From Candidatus Stercoripulliclostridium merdipullorum (GTDB taxonomy: Bacteria; Bacillota; Clostridia; Christensenellales; DTU072): a DNA stretch of 37,193 nucleotides. The translations under genes were made by a program, and so were the position numbers. The notes beneath the pieces were generated by a model, which saw only the letters and a program-made list of their open reading frames with translations, searched no databases and had not been told where the DNA came from. This document shows, in pieces, positions 20,621 through 28,204 of the stretch. The stretch lies in assembly GCA_018713745.1 (NCBI GenBank), contig DVOH01000016.1:79604-116796 (forward strand), in the 5' to 3' direction. How positions within the stretch are numbered: the first letter of the stretch is position 1; every line of letters begins with the position of its first letter.

Positions 20621-21625
20621 TCAGACCTGCGGCGCCCACTCGTAAGCGACGTAAGTGTTTGTCAACTCGACGGCGATGTTGTCGGTCAATTCCAACGTGC
20701 GGCGCTCGATTCCCCGCGTAAGGGTCCAGACCGCATGTGGGGACGGGAGGCTGACCTCAGTCAGCTCCGCGCAGTTCAGGAATGCGAATGCGCCGATCAT
20801 CGATACGGCGGCGGGGAGACGGAGGGAAGTCAGGGCGGTTGCACGGAAGGCATTTGCCCCGATCGTTTGGAGCGCGGCTTCGGTCGATACGGTCACTTCG
20901 GACAGTGACGTGCAATCGGCAAAAGCCGATTCGGCAATGATTTCGAGGGCGTCGGGCAACGCAACGCGGACCAGAGCGGCGCAACCCTGCATTGCTCCGG
21001 TATGAAGCTGTCGGAGCGTAGAGGGGAGTGCGATTTCGGACAGTTCGGGCTGATCCCGAAACGCAAATTGCCCGATATATCGGACGGCGGAGTCGGGCGC
21101 GAAGACGACCGACGTCAAAACGTTAAGACGAGCAGAATCATAGGAGAAGGCGTAGGGGGCAATGCCGACAACGGGATAATCGCCGGCAGAGGACAGAAAA
21201 TGTCGGGCGGGGATATAAACGTCGGAATTTTTCCCCGACCAGCCTTCGACGATATAGCCTCCCGCGTCGGCGCGGAAAGAAAACATCAATCCCGCATCCC
21301 GCTTCCAACGGGCGTAAACCGCAATCGTGGTGTCTAAGGAGTCGCGGTAGGATTCGGGGATAAAATCATCGCCTTCCGGCGAGCCGACCGCCCAGCCCGC
21401 AAACAGAAATCCGTCCTTGACGGGTGTGGGCGGAAGCGTTGCGACGCTCCCTTGCGGAACGGTTTCGGAGTGGTATTCGGTGTCGTCCGTAAAGTAGCGG
21501 ACAAGATAAGCGGGTGCGGTAGTTTCCGGGGGATCGGAGGGAGCGCAGGCGGACACGCCTGCTGCAAGCAGTACAATCAAAAAGATAAGAATCGCAAGAC
21601 GCGATGTTCGAGCGGATTTTTGCAT
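20621..21625 (-). CDS. BspA-type leucine-rich-repeat lipoprotein with InlB-type repeat
   Basis: MQKSARTSRLAILIFLIVLLAAGVSACAPS lipobox; YLVRYFTDDTEYHSETVPQGSVATLPPTPVKDGFLFAGWAVG; repeats such as IGQFAFRDQPELSEIALPSTLRQLHTGAMQGCAALVRVALPDALEIIAESAFADCTSLSEVTV. Confidence 0.88.
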   Translation of the reverse strand: MQKSARTSRLAILIFLIVLLAAGVSACAPSDPPETTAPAYLVRYFTDDTEYHSETVPQGSVATLPPTPVKDGFLFAGWAVGSPEGDDFIPESYRDSLDTTIAVYARWKRDAGLMFSFRADAGGYIVEGWSGKNSDVYIPARHFLSSAGDYPVVGIAPYAFSYDSARLNVLTSVVFAPDSAVRYIGQFAFRDQPELSEIALPSTLRQLHTGAMQGCAALVRVALPDALEIIAESAFADCTSLSEVTVSTEAALQTIGANAFRATALTSLRLPAAVSMIGAFAFLNCAELTEVSLPSPHAVWTLTRGIERRTLELTDNIAVELTNTYVAYEWAPQV

Positions 21626-21773
21626 GGCAAACTCCTTGCGGTTTGTTTCAGTATAGCATGACTTCGGACATTTGTAAACGATGAAGGCATTCTGCCGCGT
21701 ATAATGGGAAGAGGGGGTTATGATGAGAAGATTGTGCGAAGCGCCTTTCCGGTGTCGGGCGGAAGAAGAAAAA

Positions 21774-22135
21774 ATGTTGTCGGGGTCGGTAGCGGGCGGC
21801 GCGGTCGGCGGGGACGGAACCTTGGCAAATCCTTTCGGTACGGTAACCGAAGTGCTTGTTTTGTATCCGAAAACGGAACAGTTTATCTTTTGCGCGGAAA
21901 TTATCCGCTGACGACGCAGTTCAATCTGAACAAGGCGGGCGTAACGCTCGAAGGCAGTCGCGGTACGGTGCTGACCTTGGAAGCGGCACTCATTCCTTTT
22001 TTGATCACAGCCGCCGACGTCACGCTCCGCGGGTTGACGCTGACGTCGGACGCGCCTTATGCCAACGAGTGGATTCAGGGCGGCGGGGACGGAGCGTTGA
22101 TCGAAGACAATACGATTTTCGGACCGCATAAATCA
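21774..22135 (+). pseudogene. Decayed right-handed beta-helix protein N-terminal fragment, frameshifted and truncated
   Basis: GGAVGGDGTLANPFGTVTEVL in one frame, then SENGTVYLLRGNYPLTTQFNLNKAGVTLEGSRGTVLTL...LRGLTLTSDAPYANEWIQGGGDGALIEDNTIFGPHK in another. Confidence 0.65.
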
Positions 22136-22803: not shown

Positions 22804-22832
22804 TTGTCAGCCGTTGTGGCGTATGATATAGT
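22804..22832 (+). promoter_or_regulatory. Putative sigma-70-type promoter of the redox/membrane operon
   Basis: TTGTCA (22804-22809) - 17 nt - TATAGT (22827-22832), 34 nt before the first ATG. Confidence 0.65.
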
Positions 22833-22866
22833 GATGATACCGAAACCCGATTCAGGAGGAGTTCTT

Positions 22867-23748
22867 ATGGATCAACAAACCAAAACTCTGCAACCCGATT
22901 TGCAGAAATTCACCCCGCGCCCCCGTCTGGAATTGCTGATCAAATGGGTGATGTTTACCGCGGCGATCACCGGTATGGCGATTTTGTCCGCGTTTTATCC
23001 CATCTGGGCAAACGTTCCGCTTATCGTAATTCCGTCGATTCTCACTCTGATTTTTGCAAAGCCCGTATTTTTTGAAAAAATCAAACTGCTGACGCTGGTC
23101 GTCATGCGTACGTTCATCGTCTTTGCCGTCATCTTCAATCTGGGGCAGTTCTACGCCAACCTGATTATGGTGGCGATGATCATCAACATTCTCGAAGCGA
23201 CGTTGACCGACCTGAAGCACAAACAATACTTCAACTTTGTGACGGGGCTGTTCCTCGCCGTAGGCGTTGTCGCAATGCGCGCTTCCTGGGGTGCCGTAGA
23301 AGGCGGTCCGGGTGCCGAATACGACTATTATTTTGTCAACGGCTTCAACAGCGCCGCGACGATCTGCTGGGTTGTCGCCTACACGATCTGGAACTGGATT
23401 TTCGTCACCGGCGAATTTTCGTCCTCTGTCAGCCTGATGCACACCGGCTTTTTGGCGTCTCCCATCATCAGCTGCCTTGCCACGATGGGTACGCTCGGCT
23501 TCCCCGGCGGATTCGGATTGTGGTATCTCGTACGCGCCAATTCTCTTTCGATCGGCGGTTATATGCAGATCTGCTGCAAAAACTGGTTTGAGAAAGAATT
23601 CTACAACTCGAAGTTCGAAAAATTCGTGGCGTGGACGCATAAGTGGTATGTTCAGTTGGTATTGATGCTGATCTGCCTTGCTCTGATCGGCTACACCTTC
23701 ATCGGCGGTCTGATCGAAGTCGGCGTCGGCTACACGTCCGGACTTTAA
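22867..23748 (+). CDS. Polytopic membrane protein of unknown function (paralogue of 26479-27435)
   Basis: 293 aa, about 7 hydrophobic segments; motifs NILEA, TGLFL, VVAYTIWN shared with the last gene of the operon; RBS aggagg. Confidence 0.85.
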   Translation: MDQQTKTLQPDLQKFTPRPRLELLIKWVMFTAAITGMAILSAFYPIWANVPLIVIPSILTLIFAKPVFFEKIKLLTLVVMRTFIVFAVIFNLGQFYANLIMVAMIINILEATLTDLKHKQYFNFVTGLFLAVGVVAMRASWGAVEGGPGAEYDYYFVNGFNSAATICWVVAYTIWNWIFVTGEFSSSVSLMHTGFLASPIISCLATMGTLGFPGGFGLWYLVRANSLSIGGYMQICCKNWFEKEFYNSKFEKFVAWTHKWYVQLVLMLICLALIGYTFIGGLIEVGVGYTSGL

Positions 23749-23761
23749 TTAAGGAGGCAAT

Positions 23762-25294
23762 ATGAAGCAATATGACGTTATCGTGATCGGCGCAGGCAAC
23801 GGCGGTCTTGCCGCCGCCGCAACCTTTGCCGAGCACGGCAAAAAGGTTGCCGTGTTCGAAAAGCACAATATCCCCGGCGGTTGCGGGACCAGTTTCCGCA
23901 GAGGGCGCTTTGAGTTTGAAGTCGCTCTGCACCAGCTCAGCAGCATGGGCACGCCCGAAAAACCCGGTGAACTGCGACAACAGTTCAAGCGGTACGGCAT
24001 CGAGGACAAGATCGACTGGATCGAAATCAAGGAGCTGTTCCGCGTTAATTTCCCCGACGGCACCGGCGTCAGCCTGCCCGTCGGCAAAGAGGCGTGCGTG
24101 AAGCATCTGTCCGAAGTATTCCCGCACGAGAAGGACAACATCGTCCGTTATTTCGATACGGTATACCGCTTCTGCGAAGAAGCCAATTCGTTTGCCGCCA
24201 AGTCGGCGCAGTCGACGGGCGAACCGAGCGCGCTGAAAAAAGCGATCATGAAAGCGGGCTTCCCCAAGATTTACCCCACCCTTGCCCGTTACGGTCTCAG
24301 CGCGACGCAGGACGTCATGGATGAGTTTTTCACCGACAAAAAGCTGCAGCTTGCCCTTTCGGCGTACTGGTGCTTTATGGGAATGCCGCCTTCACGCTTC
24401 CCTTGGTCCATCCTTGCCAAGTGCCTTTACATTTACACCGAGGACAAACCGTTCTATCTGCGCGGCACCTCGCAGATCATGAATCAGGCAATCGCCGAAT
24501 CCGTCCGTGAGCGGGGCGGCGACCTGTTTTTCAATACCGGCATTGCCAAAATTCTGATGGAAGGCGATACCGCCGTCGGCGTGGAAGACGAGTTCGGCGA
24601 ACGCTACTACGCAAAACGCATCGTCAGCAACATCAGCCCCATCGACACTTACGTTCAGCTGATCGGGACGGACAAAATGCCCGAAGCCGCCAACGAGTAT
24701 CTCAAACCCTATACGGTCGGAATTTCGGCGTTGACCTGCTTCATCGGGTTGGACTGCACGCCCGAAGAAATCGGCTTTACGACGTCGTTTACGCTTAATT
24801 ACGACAGCCTCGACGCCAACGAAGATTTCAAAAACGCCTACAAACTTCTGCCTTCTCACGATCCCATCGTCGCAACGTGCTATACCGTGGACGATCCCAC
24901 CGTTTCGCCGCCCGGGACTTCGGTCATCACGGCGGGAACGCTCAAATACTCGACGGAATGGGAGAAGCTGACCCCCGAACAGTATTACCAAAAGAAATAC
25001 GAAGCGGCAAACGTCATCATCGACCGTCTCGAAAAGCAGTATCCCGGTTTCCGCGATCACATCGAGGAGATCGAAATCGCAACGCCTCTTACGCACATGC
25101 GTTATCTGCACCATCCGGGCGGCGCGATTTACGGATACGAGCAGGATCTGAAGTCGTCGGTTTTCTTCTATCCTTCCGAAAGCAAGGTCAAGCATCTTGA
25201 ATTTGCAAGCGGATGGGTCAACGTATGCGGATTCGGACCCAATTATATGTTTGCCGACAAGCTGGCAAAAAGAATGTTGAAGGAGATGGACTGA
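23762..25294 (+). CDS. FAD/NAD(P)-dependent oxidoreductase, phytoene desaturase/carotenoid isomerase/retinol saturase-like
   Basis: MKQYDVIVIGAGNGGLAAAATFAEHGKKVAVFEKHNIPGGCGTSFRRGRFEFEVALHQLSSMG (GxGxxG Rossmann plus E and GG.....); C-terminal PGGAIYGYEQ...ASGWVNVCGFGPNYMFADKLAKRM. Confidence 0.88.
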   Translation: MKQYDVIVIGAGNGGLAAAATFAEHGKKVAVFEKHNIPGGCGTSFRRGRFEFEVALHQLSSMGTPEKPGELRQQFKRYGIEDKIDWIEIKELFRVNFPDGTGVSLPVGKEACVKHLSEVFPHEKDNIVRYFDTVYRFCEEANSFAAKSAQSTGEPSALKKAIMKAGFPKIYPTLARYGLSATQDVMDEFFTDKKLQLALSAYWCFMGMPPSRFPWSILAKCLYIYTEDKPFYLRGTSQIMNQAIAESVRERGGDLFFNTGIAKILMEGDTAVGVEDEFGERYYAKRIVSNISPIDTYVQLIGTDKMPEAANEYLKPYTVGISALTCFIGLDCTPEEIGFTTSFTLNYDSLDANEDFKNAYKLLPSHDPIVATCYTVDDPTVSPPGTSVITAGTLKYSTEWEKLTPEQYYQKKYEAANVIIDRLEKQYPGFRDHIEEIEIATPLTHMRYLHHPGGAIYGYEQDLKSSVFFYPSESKVKHLEFASGWVNVCGFGPNYMFADKLAKRMLKEMD

Positions 25295-26457
25295 TGGCAG
25301 GGATTAAAGAAACCTTACTTTCTACCGTTCGAAACGGAAAACTGATACTTTCGGATATCGCCGCGACGCGGCGTAACGCCAACGACATTACCGTCGAAAA
25401 AGGTCGCGTACAGGCGACGATCGACCAGTTGCATCCCAAGCGTCTCTCCCTGGTGGTCGAGTCGGTTCGGGAAGCCGCCGAAGGCGCCAAAACCATCCGT
25501 CTTGCTTCGGCGACGGGATACTTGCCGCCGTTTGAAGCGGGGCAGTACATCAACGTATTTGTCGAGATCGACGGGGTCAGAACTTCGCGCCCCTACAGCA
25601 TTTCGTCTTCTCCCCGTCAGCGGGCGTATTACGAGATCACCGTTGCGCGCATTGCGACGGGTTTTGTTTCCGACTATTTTCTCGATCGGGTCAAGCCGGG
25701 CGACCGTTTGGAAGCCAACGGACCGCAGGGCGTGTTCCGGTTCAATCCCGTGTTCCACCGCAAAAAATCGGTCTTTCTTGCGGGCGGCAGCGGAATCACT
25801 CCTTTCCTGTCGATGACGCGTGAAATCCTCGAAGCGGGACTCGACCGCGAAATCGTTCTGATTTACGGGATCCGCAACACGTCTGTCGCCATCGGGCATG
25901 CCGAACTCGAGGCGTTTGCCGCGGAATATCCCAACTTCCGCTATGTCCCCGTGGTTTCGGGCGAAGAAAAGGGCTGGAAAGGCAAAACGGGATTTTTGAA
26001 CAAAGAGCTGATTGCCGAAGTCGTCGGCGACGTCAAGGATTGCACGTATTATGTTTGCGGTCCGCAGATCATGAACGATTTCTGCCTTGCCGAACTCGCC
26101 GCGCTCGGCGTGCCCGGCAAGCGCATCCGCCGCGAAATGTTCGGCGCCCGTCAGGATATCGTCAACGAACCCGGCTGGCCCGACGGCATCGCGCCCGACC
26201 GCGTATTCAAAGTCAAAGCGGGCGACCGCGTCATCGAAGCCAAGGCGGGCGATTCGTTGCTGACCTCTCTCGAAAAGGCGGGGCTTCGCGTCAACGTTTG
26301 CTGCCGCAGCGGCGAGTGCAGCCTTTGCCGTGTCAAATTGGTATCGGGCACCGTCTTTACGGCGCGCGGCGCGCTGATGCGGTTTGCCGACGAAAAATTC
26401 GGCTATATTCATTCCTGCAAGTCCTATCCCGTTTCGGACGTCGAAATCATCTTGTAG
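25294..26457 (+). CDS. Ferredoxin-NAD(P)+ reductase-type flavoprotein with C-terminal plant-type [2Fe-2S] domain
   Basis: RPYSISSSP (FAD), GGSGITPFLSM and YVCGPQIM (NAD(P)), C-x4-C-x2-C in CCRSGECSLCRVKL plus distal C in IHSCKSYP; ATG overlaps upstream TGA. Confidence 0.92.
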   Translation: MAGIKETLLSTVRNGKLILSDIAATRRNANDITVEKGRVQATIDQLHPKRLSLVVESVREAAEGAKTIRLASATGYLPPFEAGQYINVFVEIDGVRTSRPYSISSSPRQRAYYEITVARIATGFVSDYFLDRVKPGDRLEANGPQGVFRFNPVFHRKKSVFLAGGSGITPFLSMTREILEAGLDREIVLIYGIRNTSVAIGHAELEAFAAEYPNFRYVPVVSGEEKGWKGKTGFLNKELIAEVVGDVKDCTYYVCGPQIMNDFCLAELAALGVPGKRIRREMFGARQDIVNEPGWPDGIAPDRVFKVKAGDRVIEAKAGDSLLTSLEKAGLRVNVCCRSGECSLCRVKLVSGTVFTARGALMRFADEKFGYIHSCKSYPVSDVEIIL

Positions 26458-26478
26458 CTTGCAGCAGGAGGAGGTTTT

Positions 26479-27435
26479 ATGAAAGGATTTTTCTTTGACG
26501 GATATACCGTCGAAACGATTATGATGTTTTTGGGGTTGATCGCACTGCTGGTCATCCTCAACGAGGTTTCCCGCAAAAACAAGTGGGTTGCAACGGTGTT
26601 CTACGGCGTACTGCCCTTGGTATTGGGCATCCTGGTGATCGCGGGCGTGACGTCCAGTCCGTCCTCCAAAACCTGGTTCGGCGCCCTTAAGACTTATTCC
26701 GCCGTTGCAGGTGTTATCGGCTTTATGCTGATCCGCTATATCGACAAGATCGGCAAGTCGAAGTTTGCGTTCTACTTCCCCGTCGTTATTCTGGTCGTCA
26801 ACATTCTCGAAGCGATTTATCGCGAGATCGAGGTTTACGCCAACTATACCGTACCCGTCGTCGACGAAGCCGGAATCTATATGCTCGGCGGTCCCTGGAA
26901 CATTCTCAACGCGCTGGCGGGACTTTTCCTGATGCTCAGCCTGACGGGTTGGATGGGGATCAAGGTTGCCAAAACGCCGTCGCGCGATATGGTCTGGGCG
27001 GATCAGCTGTGGTTCTGGATCATTGCGTACGACTTCTGGAATATCGCGTATTGCTACAACTGCATTTCCAGCCGTGCGATGTACGCGGGCGTTGCGATTA
27101 TCATCGCCTGTACCCTTTGCGAATGCTTCTGCAAACGCGGAATCTGGCTTCAGCACCGTGCGCAGACGCTTGCGCTGTTCGGCATGTTCAGCTTAGCGTT
27201 CGACTATTCGCAGTTCTCGGCGTTTTCGATCGTGGCGACCTATAATCCCGACGCATGGTTGACGCTGGGGATCTTGTCGTTTGTCGTCAATCTTGCCGTA
27301 TTTGCATATACGGTTTCCGTCATCGTCAAGCGCAAACGCAATCCGCTGAAGCAAGAGATGTTTGTCGAACTGAAGGCGTATCGCAGAAATCTCGAGGCAA
27401 ACAACCTGTTGCCCGACAACGCGCTGAGCGAATAA
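26479..27435 (+). CDS. DUF5692-like polytopic membrane protein
   Basis: LLVILNEVSRKNKWVATVFYGVLPLVLGILVI...TWFGALKTYSAVAGVIGFMLIRYI...VVNILEAIYREI...AGLFLMLSLTGW...IIAYDFWNIAYCYN; about 8 hydrophobic segments; family name from memory. Confidence 0.72.
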   Translation: MKGFFFDGYTVETIMMFLGLIALLVILNEVSRKNKWVATVFYGVLPLVLGILVIAGVTSSPSSKTWFGALKTYSAVAGVIGFMLIRYIDKIGKSKFAFYFPVVILVVNILEAIYREIEVYANYTVPVVDEAGIYMLGGPWNILNALAGLFLMLSLTGWMGIKVAKTPSRDMVWADQLWFWIIAYDFWNIAYCYNCISSRAMYAGVAIIIACTLCECFCKRGIWLQHRAQTLALFGMFSLAFDYSQFSAFSIVATYNPDAWLTLGILSFVVNLAVFAYTVSVIVKRKRNPLKQEMFVELKAYRRNLEANNLLPDNALSE

Positions 27436-27443
27436 ATTGGGAT

Positions 27444-27471
27444 AAAAAACGATCCGCAAGGATCGTTTTTT
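27444..27471 (+). terminator. Rho-independent terminator of the redox/membrane operon
   Basis: AAAAAACGATCC-GCAA-GGATCGTTTTTT. Confidence 0.9.
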
Positions 27472-27484
27472 CATGAGGGATCGG

Positions 27485-28204
27485 ATGGGAAAACCGGTAG
27501 CAATCTACTATGTGCGCGGACCGCGCTCGGGACGGGATTATCCCGTCCTTGTCGTCAGACGAAACGGAAACGGCGCAACCGTGCGGATCGACAAAAGATC
27601 GGAAGAGATCCGGCTCGGCGTACCGCCGACGGTCAGTCGTCGCTGGGTCGAAGATACCGTTTTGCGCTACGGCGAAAGTTGGGGAAGACGGATGGACGAA
27701 GCCCCTTTGCCCGCTCCTTCGGCGTTTGAGATCACGCTCGGGAGGGAGATGATTTTAGGCGGAAAGTCGGTTCCGATTCGCATCGAACAAGGGCAAAAAG
27801 CCCGGGGATGCGAGACGGAAGAGGGGATCGTATTATATCTTCTCCGGCCCGAAGATCGCGAAGAGGGCAGACGCGTTCTGGATCTCTGGTTCAGCGCAAA
27901 AGCTAAGTTTGAGATCCCGATCGTCTACAAGCGGTGGCACGAAATTATGTTTCCCGGGAGTCCGCTTCCCGCATTGACGATCCGCAGGATGCGTTCGAGA
28001 TGGGGGTCTTGCAATGCGGCAAAACGTCGCATCACGCTCAACGAATATCTGCTGAAAGTTCCGCCCGCATGCCTTGACTACATCGTCGTACACGAGCTTG
28101 CCCATCTGGTGCATGCCAATCACGGCAGCGATTTCTATCGTCTGGTCGGACAATATATCCCCGACTGGAAGGAGCGGCGCAAGCTGCTGAGACGGTTTGA
28201 ATAA
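27485..28204 (+). CDS. YgjP/SprT-like zinc metallopeptidase (M48-related, DUF45)
   Basis: RRMRSRWGSCNAAKRRITLNEYLLKVPPACLDYIVVHELAHLVHANHGSDFYRLVGQYIPDWKERRKLL with HELAH; ATG 27485 preferred, 27473 lies in the terminator. Confidence 0.93.
   Translation: MGKPVAIYYVRGPRSGRDYPVLVVRRNGNGATVRIDKRSEEIRLGVPPTVSRRWVEDTVLRYGESWGRRMDEAPLPAPSAFEITLGREMILGGKSVPIRIEQGQKARGCETEEGIVLYLLRPEDREEGRRVLDLWFSAKAKFEIPIVYKRWHEIMFPGSPLPALTIRRMRSRWGSCNAAKRRITLNEYLLKVPPACLDYIVVHELAHLVHANHGSDFYRLVGQYIPDWKERRKLLRRFE

Follow-up and report, generated by a model that had tools for sequence, protein, structure and literature searches.

Hydrogenation of dietary unsaturated fat by anaerobes shapes the trans and conjugated fatty acids that reach animals and people, yet the genes behind this step are poorly defined: according to a 2015 survey, butyrivibrio genomes could not be searched for the fatty-acid reductase, which was absent from family databases (PMC4478896). 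Several described enzymes nevertheless provide points of comparison. PAI, a polyunsaturated fatty acid isomerase, forms t10,c12-CLA from linoleate (PMC2885616), and phospholipid acyl chains are the target of UfaD, which resembles phytoene dehydrogenase (PMC7380195). Acetobacterium strain Y, which reduces isoprene, hydrogenates a single bond of conjugated dienes and leaves ethene, propene and fumarate unreduced (PMC9765523). IsrA, a putative isoprene reductase of Acetobacterium wieringae, is proposed to reduce C=C bonds with NADH, and the same study gives a co-occurrence of 0.4 between DUF5692 and IsrA homologues (PMC10134865). Here, we compare with these systems a four-gene operon, A-B-C-D, found in a window of 37,193 nt (the whole stretch of DNA analysed, G000:C14:79604-116796) from a genome of 1.73 Mb.

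The operon consists of four ORFs, all on the same strand (Table 1). As an earlier sequence-only reading had described, they follow one promoter-like site and are closely spaced, with intergenic gaps A-B, B-C and C-D of 13, −1 and 21 nt, respectively; the second gap, previously put at about zero, is a 1-nt overlap of the ATG of gene C with the stop codon of gene B. The start of gene A at 22867 is preceded by an AGGAGG sequence, and the TTG at 22804 given in the ORF list is not a likely start. The strong terminator placed after the last gene by the same reading is borne out by its folding energy, although it was not picked up by the consensus scan, probably owing to base pairing of its T run. 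Strong expression had also been suspected from the abundance of C-ending codons. The codon adaptation index of genes A-D (0.59-0.63, compared to 0.70 for ribosomal proteins) indeed exceeds the background median of 0.51, computed from a set that includes some spurious ORFs, but the share of C-ending codons is only mildly raised (39-43% versus 39% in the background), so that strong expression is weakly suggested. Near the operon lie a gene for a YgjP/SprT-like metalloprotease (window 27473-28204), with its predicted start at the very end of the operon terminator, and, on the opposite strand (window 20621-22129), a gene for a protein with repeats that, by eye, resemble those of leucine-rich surface proteins.

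Table 1. Features of the A-B-C-D operon, in window coordinates.
Feature	Position	Strand	Details
Promoter-like site	22804..22832	+	TTGTCA-17-TATAGT with TG extension; 10/12 matches, consensus scan only
Gene A, integral membrane protein, divergent DUF5692 paralogue	22867..23748	+	293 aa
Gene B, CrtI/CrtISO-like FAD oxidoreductase	23762..25294	+	510 aa; GAGNGG at residue 10
Gene C, FAD / NAD(P) / [2Fe-2S] reductase	25294..26457	+	387 aa
Gene D, integral membrane protein, DUF5692 (PF18948)	26479..27435	+	318 aa; 330 bits
Intrinsic terminator hairpin	27444..27471	+	folding −15 kcal/mol, z = −4.45

Model matches and the GAGNGG motif place protein B in the CrtI/CrtISO-like family of FAD enzymes, as originally proposed. 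Its best curated relative is the carotenoid isomerase CrtISO (TIGR02730), with a score of 181 bits against an equivalog cut-off of 587; the CrtI phytoene desaturase model (TIGR02734) gives 124 bits against a cut-off of 238. B belongs to the homologous superfamily of CrtISO and is not a CrtISO proper. The 2b9w entries, which we take to be the Propionibacterium acnes isomerase PAI, are absent among the PDB matches of B, and assignment of B to the PAI family of linoleate isomerases was rejected. Protein C displays the FAD-NAD-[2Fe-2S] architecture of PaaE/Hcr-type reductases, with FAD_binding_6, NAD_binding_1 and Fer2 domains, the last being a C-terminal plant-type [2Fe-2S] domain, and with all the expected motifs (RPYS, GGSGITP, CGP and C-x4-C-x2-C-x29-C), in full agreement with the initial assignment. 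C reaches no single equivalog cut-off; the [2Fe-2S] cysteines are kept in every full-length C protein checked.

Of the two membrane proteins, D had been recognized as DUF5692-like. This assignment stands, as D matches the DUF5692 model (PF18948) with 330 bits against a curated cut-off of 27, but the kinship of A had been missed. A itself does not match the model; however, 16 of the 22 A orthologues do, and profile comparisons link A to D orthologues (E = 2.5e-9; 1.7e-8 in a second comparison) and to lone DUF5692 proteins (E = 2.2e-13). A is thus a divergent paralogue of D, with both belonging to DUF5692. The predicted models (mean pLDDT of 87.9 for D and 86.8 for A) share the same order of elements, namely, five main helices, a beta hairpin and further helices, for a predicted total of about nine helices in each protein. 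Searches of the PDB with both models yielded no fold match at E ≤ 0.001, so that no function could be derived from structure, and the sequence profile of D retrieved no credible match. Seven residues (K71, N108, N141, Y184, W187, N188 and R227, in D numbering) are invariant across the 63 aligned A and D sequences, among which no histidine is conserved across both proteins; no known redox motif was found in A or D. DUF5692 is a new-looking membrane family.

Besides the window's own genome, no fewer than 24 species in Bacillota and Spirochaetota keep the A-B-C-D set; this count takes in loci truncated at contig edges and one locus lacking D (L006). The species genomes were scanned with short exact peptides, and the list of loci is a lower bound. 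The carriers, anaerobes of the gut and of other habitats, come from several families of Clostridia and from Spirochaetota, and include Treponema lecithinolyticum, Schaedlerella arabinosiphila and Pygmaiobacter massiliensis. In 23 loci, B is 61-86% identical over its full length, and one further locus encodes a partial B (63%). B and C are separated by −4 to +5 nt wherever both are present and, where the contig permits, A and D flank this pair or, in two Clostridium species with the order B-C-A-D, follow it. The joint presence of the four genes in so many species, with B and C nearly touching, identifies them as a genuine conserved gene unit. The outcome that the sequence-only reading had named as fatal to it, namely, that the genes are not conserved together, was tested and not borne out: the four recur across genomes. 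In the B phylogeny, the 24 operon-type sequences, including that of the window, form one clade with 100/100 support in which the two phyla are interleaved, suggesting horizontal transfer. Divergent B homologues (hereinafter B′) fall apart from this clade and are mostly paired with a C homologue (C′), without A and D. The unit is rare: among 388 sampled Clostridia genomes, it was found in one, the window's own, and a plasmid collection contained one distant B and two lone DUF5692 records.

The genome of the window carries a second, divergent operon, TetR-B′-C′ (G000:C24, L115:5596-8894), which lacks A and D and encodes a B′ ~32-34% identical to the window's B. A Faecalicatena locus (L028:47-7024) combines HypB, GntR and two tandem B′-C′ pairs. 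Distant B homologues in Bacteroidales (24-25% identity; L032-L036) adjoin long genes grouping with an acyltransferase from Treponema; these loci are possibly polyene-lipid clusters.

We define as IsrA type the enzymes of ~900 aa with the Fer4_20, Pyr_redox_2 and Fer4 domains, assigned by architecture and neighbours and not by alignment to the published IsrA; in a domain search, none of A-D has this architecture. DUF5692 is present in 24 of the 388 Clostridia genomes, 20 of which also encode an IsrA-type enzyme, compared to 30 of 388 overall (p = 2e-22), and the association persists upon collapsing to genera (16 of 19, p = 2e-17). This count agrees with the co-occurrence reported in the isoprene reductase study (PMC10134865). 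The IsrA-type enzyme usually has its chaperones HypA and HypB as neighbours. It is encoded in 18 of the 24 other operon genomes, a figure set against the Clostridia background and uncorrected for kinship, and in the window's own, that is, in 19 of 25; the six genomes without it include that of T. lecithinolyticum. In six loci (L006, L007, L008, L021, L022 and L147, the last for L011), the IsrA-type gene directly adjoins A-B-C-D, whereas the genome of the window carries a separate HypB-IsrA type-HypA cluster (G000:C27:6762-10459, L120) and no detected DUF5692 gene besides A and D. The B′-C′ pairs do not significantly co-occur with the IsrA type (p = 0.44 without the window's genome). A GntR/FCD-type regulator family is common to the operon, IsrA-type and B′-C′ clusters, and lone DUF5692 proteins are found together with a soluble enzyme of the diene reductase type. 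The IsrA-type matches in five genomes (G319, G248, G182, G310 and G409) contain one internal stop codon each.

Homologues of PAI, found in only seven of the 388 genomes, follow the same enzyme: six of these genomes encode an IsrA type (p = 9e-7; five of six by genus, p = 3e-5), and in all six genomes with both genes on one contig (five from the sample and Clostridium simiarum), the two are 1.1-3.6 kb apart. In one locus (L134, genome G249), a PAI homologue (636 bits to 2b9w) is followed, after 24 nt, by B′-C′, TetR and the edge of an IsrA-type gene, and the sister genome G042 holds a PAI remnant with B′, C′, TetR, IsrA type, HypA and HypB. This operon link to an isomerase was seen in one genus and involves a divergent B′-C′ pair (B′ ~28% identical), not the strict four-gene unit, which was not seen beside an isomerase gene; PAI is present in one of the 25 operon genomes. 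Other genes of lipid metabolism include an acylglycerol-phosphate acyltransferase after D (L012), a fatty-acid-CoA ligase after B′-C′ (L131) and an oleate hydratase adjoining the IsrA homologues of Acetobacterium woodii. Oleate hydratase was rejected as a constant partner, with clear full-length matches in five of the 25 operon genomes and none in that of the window. Separately, a PAI homologue-HypB-IsrA type-HypA cluster recurs in five loci (L140, L141, L110, L111 and L112), with an HTH protein in most and DUF5692 in three, representing a candidate pathway of linoleate isomerase and conjugated-diene reductase.

Collectively, the PAI and IsrA-type neighbours, the acyltransferase, the fatty-acid-CoA ligase, the GntR/FCD regulators and the precedent of UfaD point to unsaturated fatty acids as the leading substrate candidate, which genomic association supports moderately; the reduction of conjugated dienes by strain Y also favours such a substrate, conjugated linoleate being a conjugated diene. 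The broad list of substrates entertained at the outset (retinoids, quinones, bile acids and others) is thereby narrowed, whereas its more general expectations, a co-inherited redox unit with C as the electron donor and a hydrophobic unsaturated substrate, both appear likely. We tentatively propose, at a confidence approaching but not reaching an even call, that A-B-C-D forms a system anchored in the membrane and driven by NAD(P)H for the modification, and most likely the reduction, of C=C bonds in unsaturated long-chain fatty acids, whether these are free or part of lipids, as a branch of anaerobic fatty-acid biohydrogenation. C would transfer a hydride from NAD(P)H onto its FAD and pass electrons via the [2Fe-2S] cluster to the FAD of B, and reduced B would act on the acyl chain, presented to it by a heteromeric membrane unit of A and D. 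The likely benefit would be electron disposal, detoxification of polyunsaturated fatty acids, or both. The exact reaction is one that we infer: reduction is favoured by the reductase gene directly following B in every genome and by the sharing of an operon between B′-C′ and an isomerase.

The same genes might, instead, encode a fatty-acid double-bond isomerase in which B works in the manner of CrtISO: with C holding its FAD in the reduced state, B would turn linoleate into a conjugated diene, which the IsrA type would then reduce. Such an enzyme, which we consider unlikely although it is the main alternative, might be responsible for the membrane-bound linoleate delta12-cis,delta11-trans isomerase activity found in anaerobes. 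The closeness of B to carotenoid isomerase fits this scheme, as does the description of the classical c9,t11-forming isomerases as membrane-bound; furthermore, PAI and A-B-C-D seem to occupy one slot beside the IsrA type, given the near absence of PAI from operon genomes, and the activity of strain Y is restricted to conjugated dienes (PMC9765523). However, a reductase gene directly after B everywhere suggests stoichiometric use of electrons, the L134 operon with B′-C′ already holds an isomerase, and several operon genomes have no IsrA-type gene.

The carotenoid kinship of B raises the question of isoprenoids. Synthesis of carotenoids was rejected, because phytoene/squalene synthase (SQS_PSY) is encoded in none of the 25 operon genomes, while 7 of the 14 controls gave a match, which extends to whole genomes the earlier remark that the window lacks carotenoid synthesis genes. 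This absence excludes an own carotenoid, not an imported one, and B could reduce or isomerise an isoprenoid or polyene supplied by the diet or the host, be it a terpene, retinoid, carotenoid, tocopherol or quinone, all the more so as isoprene is the proposed substrate of IsrA (PMC10134865). Still, no isoprenoid gene was recognized as a recurrent neighbour of the unit, and the linoleate isomerase homologues and acyl-lipid genes of related clusters point to fatty acids, making this scenario improbable. A membrane electron-transfer chain, with A and D carrying electrons, for example, to quinone, and B as a minor partner, would account for two conserved membrane proteins with invariant polar helix residues (K71, N108, N141, N188 and R227). 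We regard it as very improbable, considering that A and D share no histidine for haem, have no known redox motif and show no significant fold match to electron-transfer membrane subunits, and that lone DUF5692 accompanies a soluble enzyme.

Returning to fatty-acid modification by A-B-C-D, a bolder formulation, which we hold possible but rather doubtful, is that the unit represents an undescribed complex acting as isomerase, reductase or both in the anaerobic biohydrogenation of polyunsaturated fatty acids, and DUF5692 a new membrane fold handing acyl chains to several unrelated double-bond enzymes. In the literature searched, which included few subscription papers or preprints, we found no account at the gene level of this operon, nor of any CrtI-like enzyme taking part in the hydrogenation of fatty acids, nor any named system of this composition, consistent with the earlier impression; DUF5692 itself came up in a single paper. 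Thus, the operon is real, conserved and, as far as this literature shows, undescribed, and its function is a testable prediction. A-B-C-D and its neighbours offer a concrete gene set for the poorly defined hydrogenation step that can be tested heterologously, provide a candidate function for DUF5692 and link the putative isoprene reductase family to fatty acids, a connection that its authors do not draw in the available text. If the prediction is true, biohydrogenation activities that have been studied since the 1960s, chiefly by enzymology, would gain their genes.

Several known systems share some features with the operon and differ in others. B is homologous to CrtISO and CrtI over nearly its full length, but lies far under the family cut-offs and is encoded in an operon with a linked reductase and without carotenoid synthesis genes. 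PAI is likewise an FAD enzyme of the wider amine-oxidase/phytoene-dehydrogenase superfamily, with a close homologue in one operon with B′-C′; however, it is smaller (about 425 aa) and has no dedicated reductase or membrane partners, and B is nearer to CrtISO/CrtI. UfaD shares with B a phytoene-dehydrogenase-like character and an association with membrane acyl chains, but catalyses an oxidation, under aerobic conditions, with no partners resembling C, A or D described (PMC7380195). The isr operon contains no CrtI-like or FNR-type gene, and IsrA, a flavin/Fe-S protein of ~900 aa, is unrelated in architecture to B and C; nevertheless, DUF5692 and HypA/HypB lie near its homologues, C=C reduction is its proposed activity (PMC10134865), and an IsrA-type enzyme is encoded beside A-B-C-D or elsewhere in most genomes with the unit. 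In terms of proposed activity, the likeness extends to the CLA reductase of Butyrivibrio fibrisolvens, which, as summarized in a later survey, catalyses anaerobic, NADH-linked reduction of conjugated fatty acids and is membrane-associated (Fukuda 2007, cited in PMC4478896).
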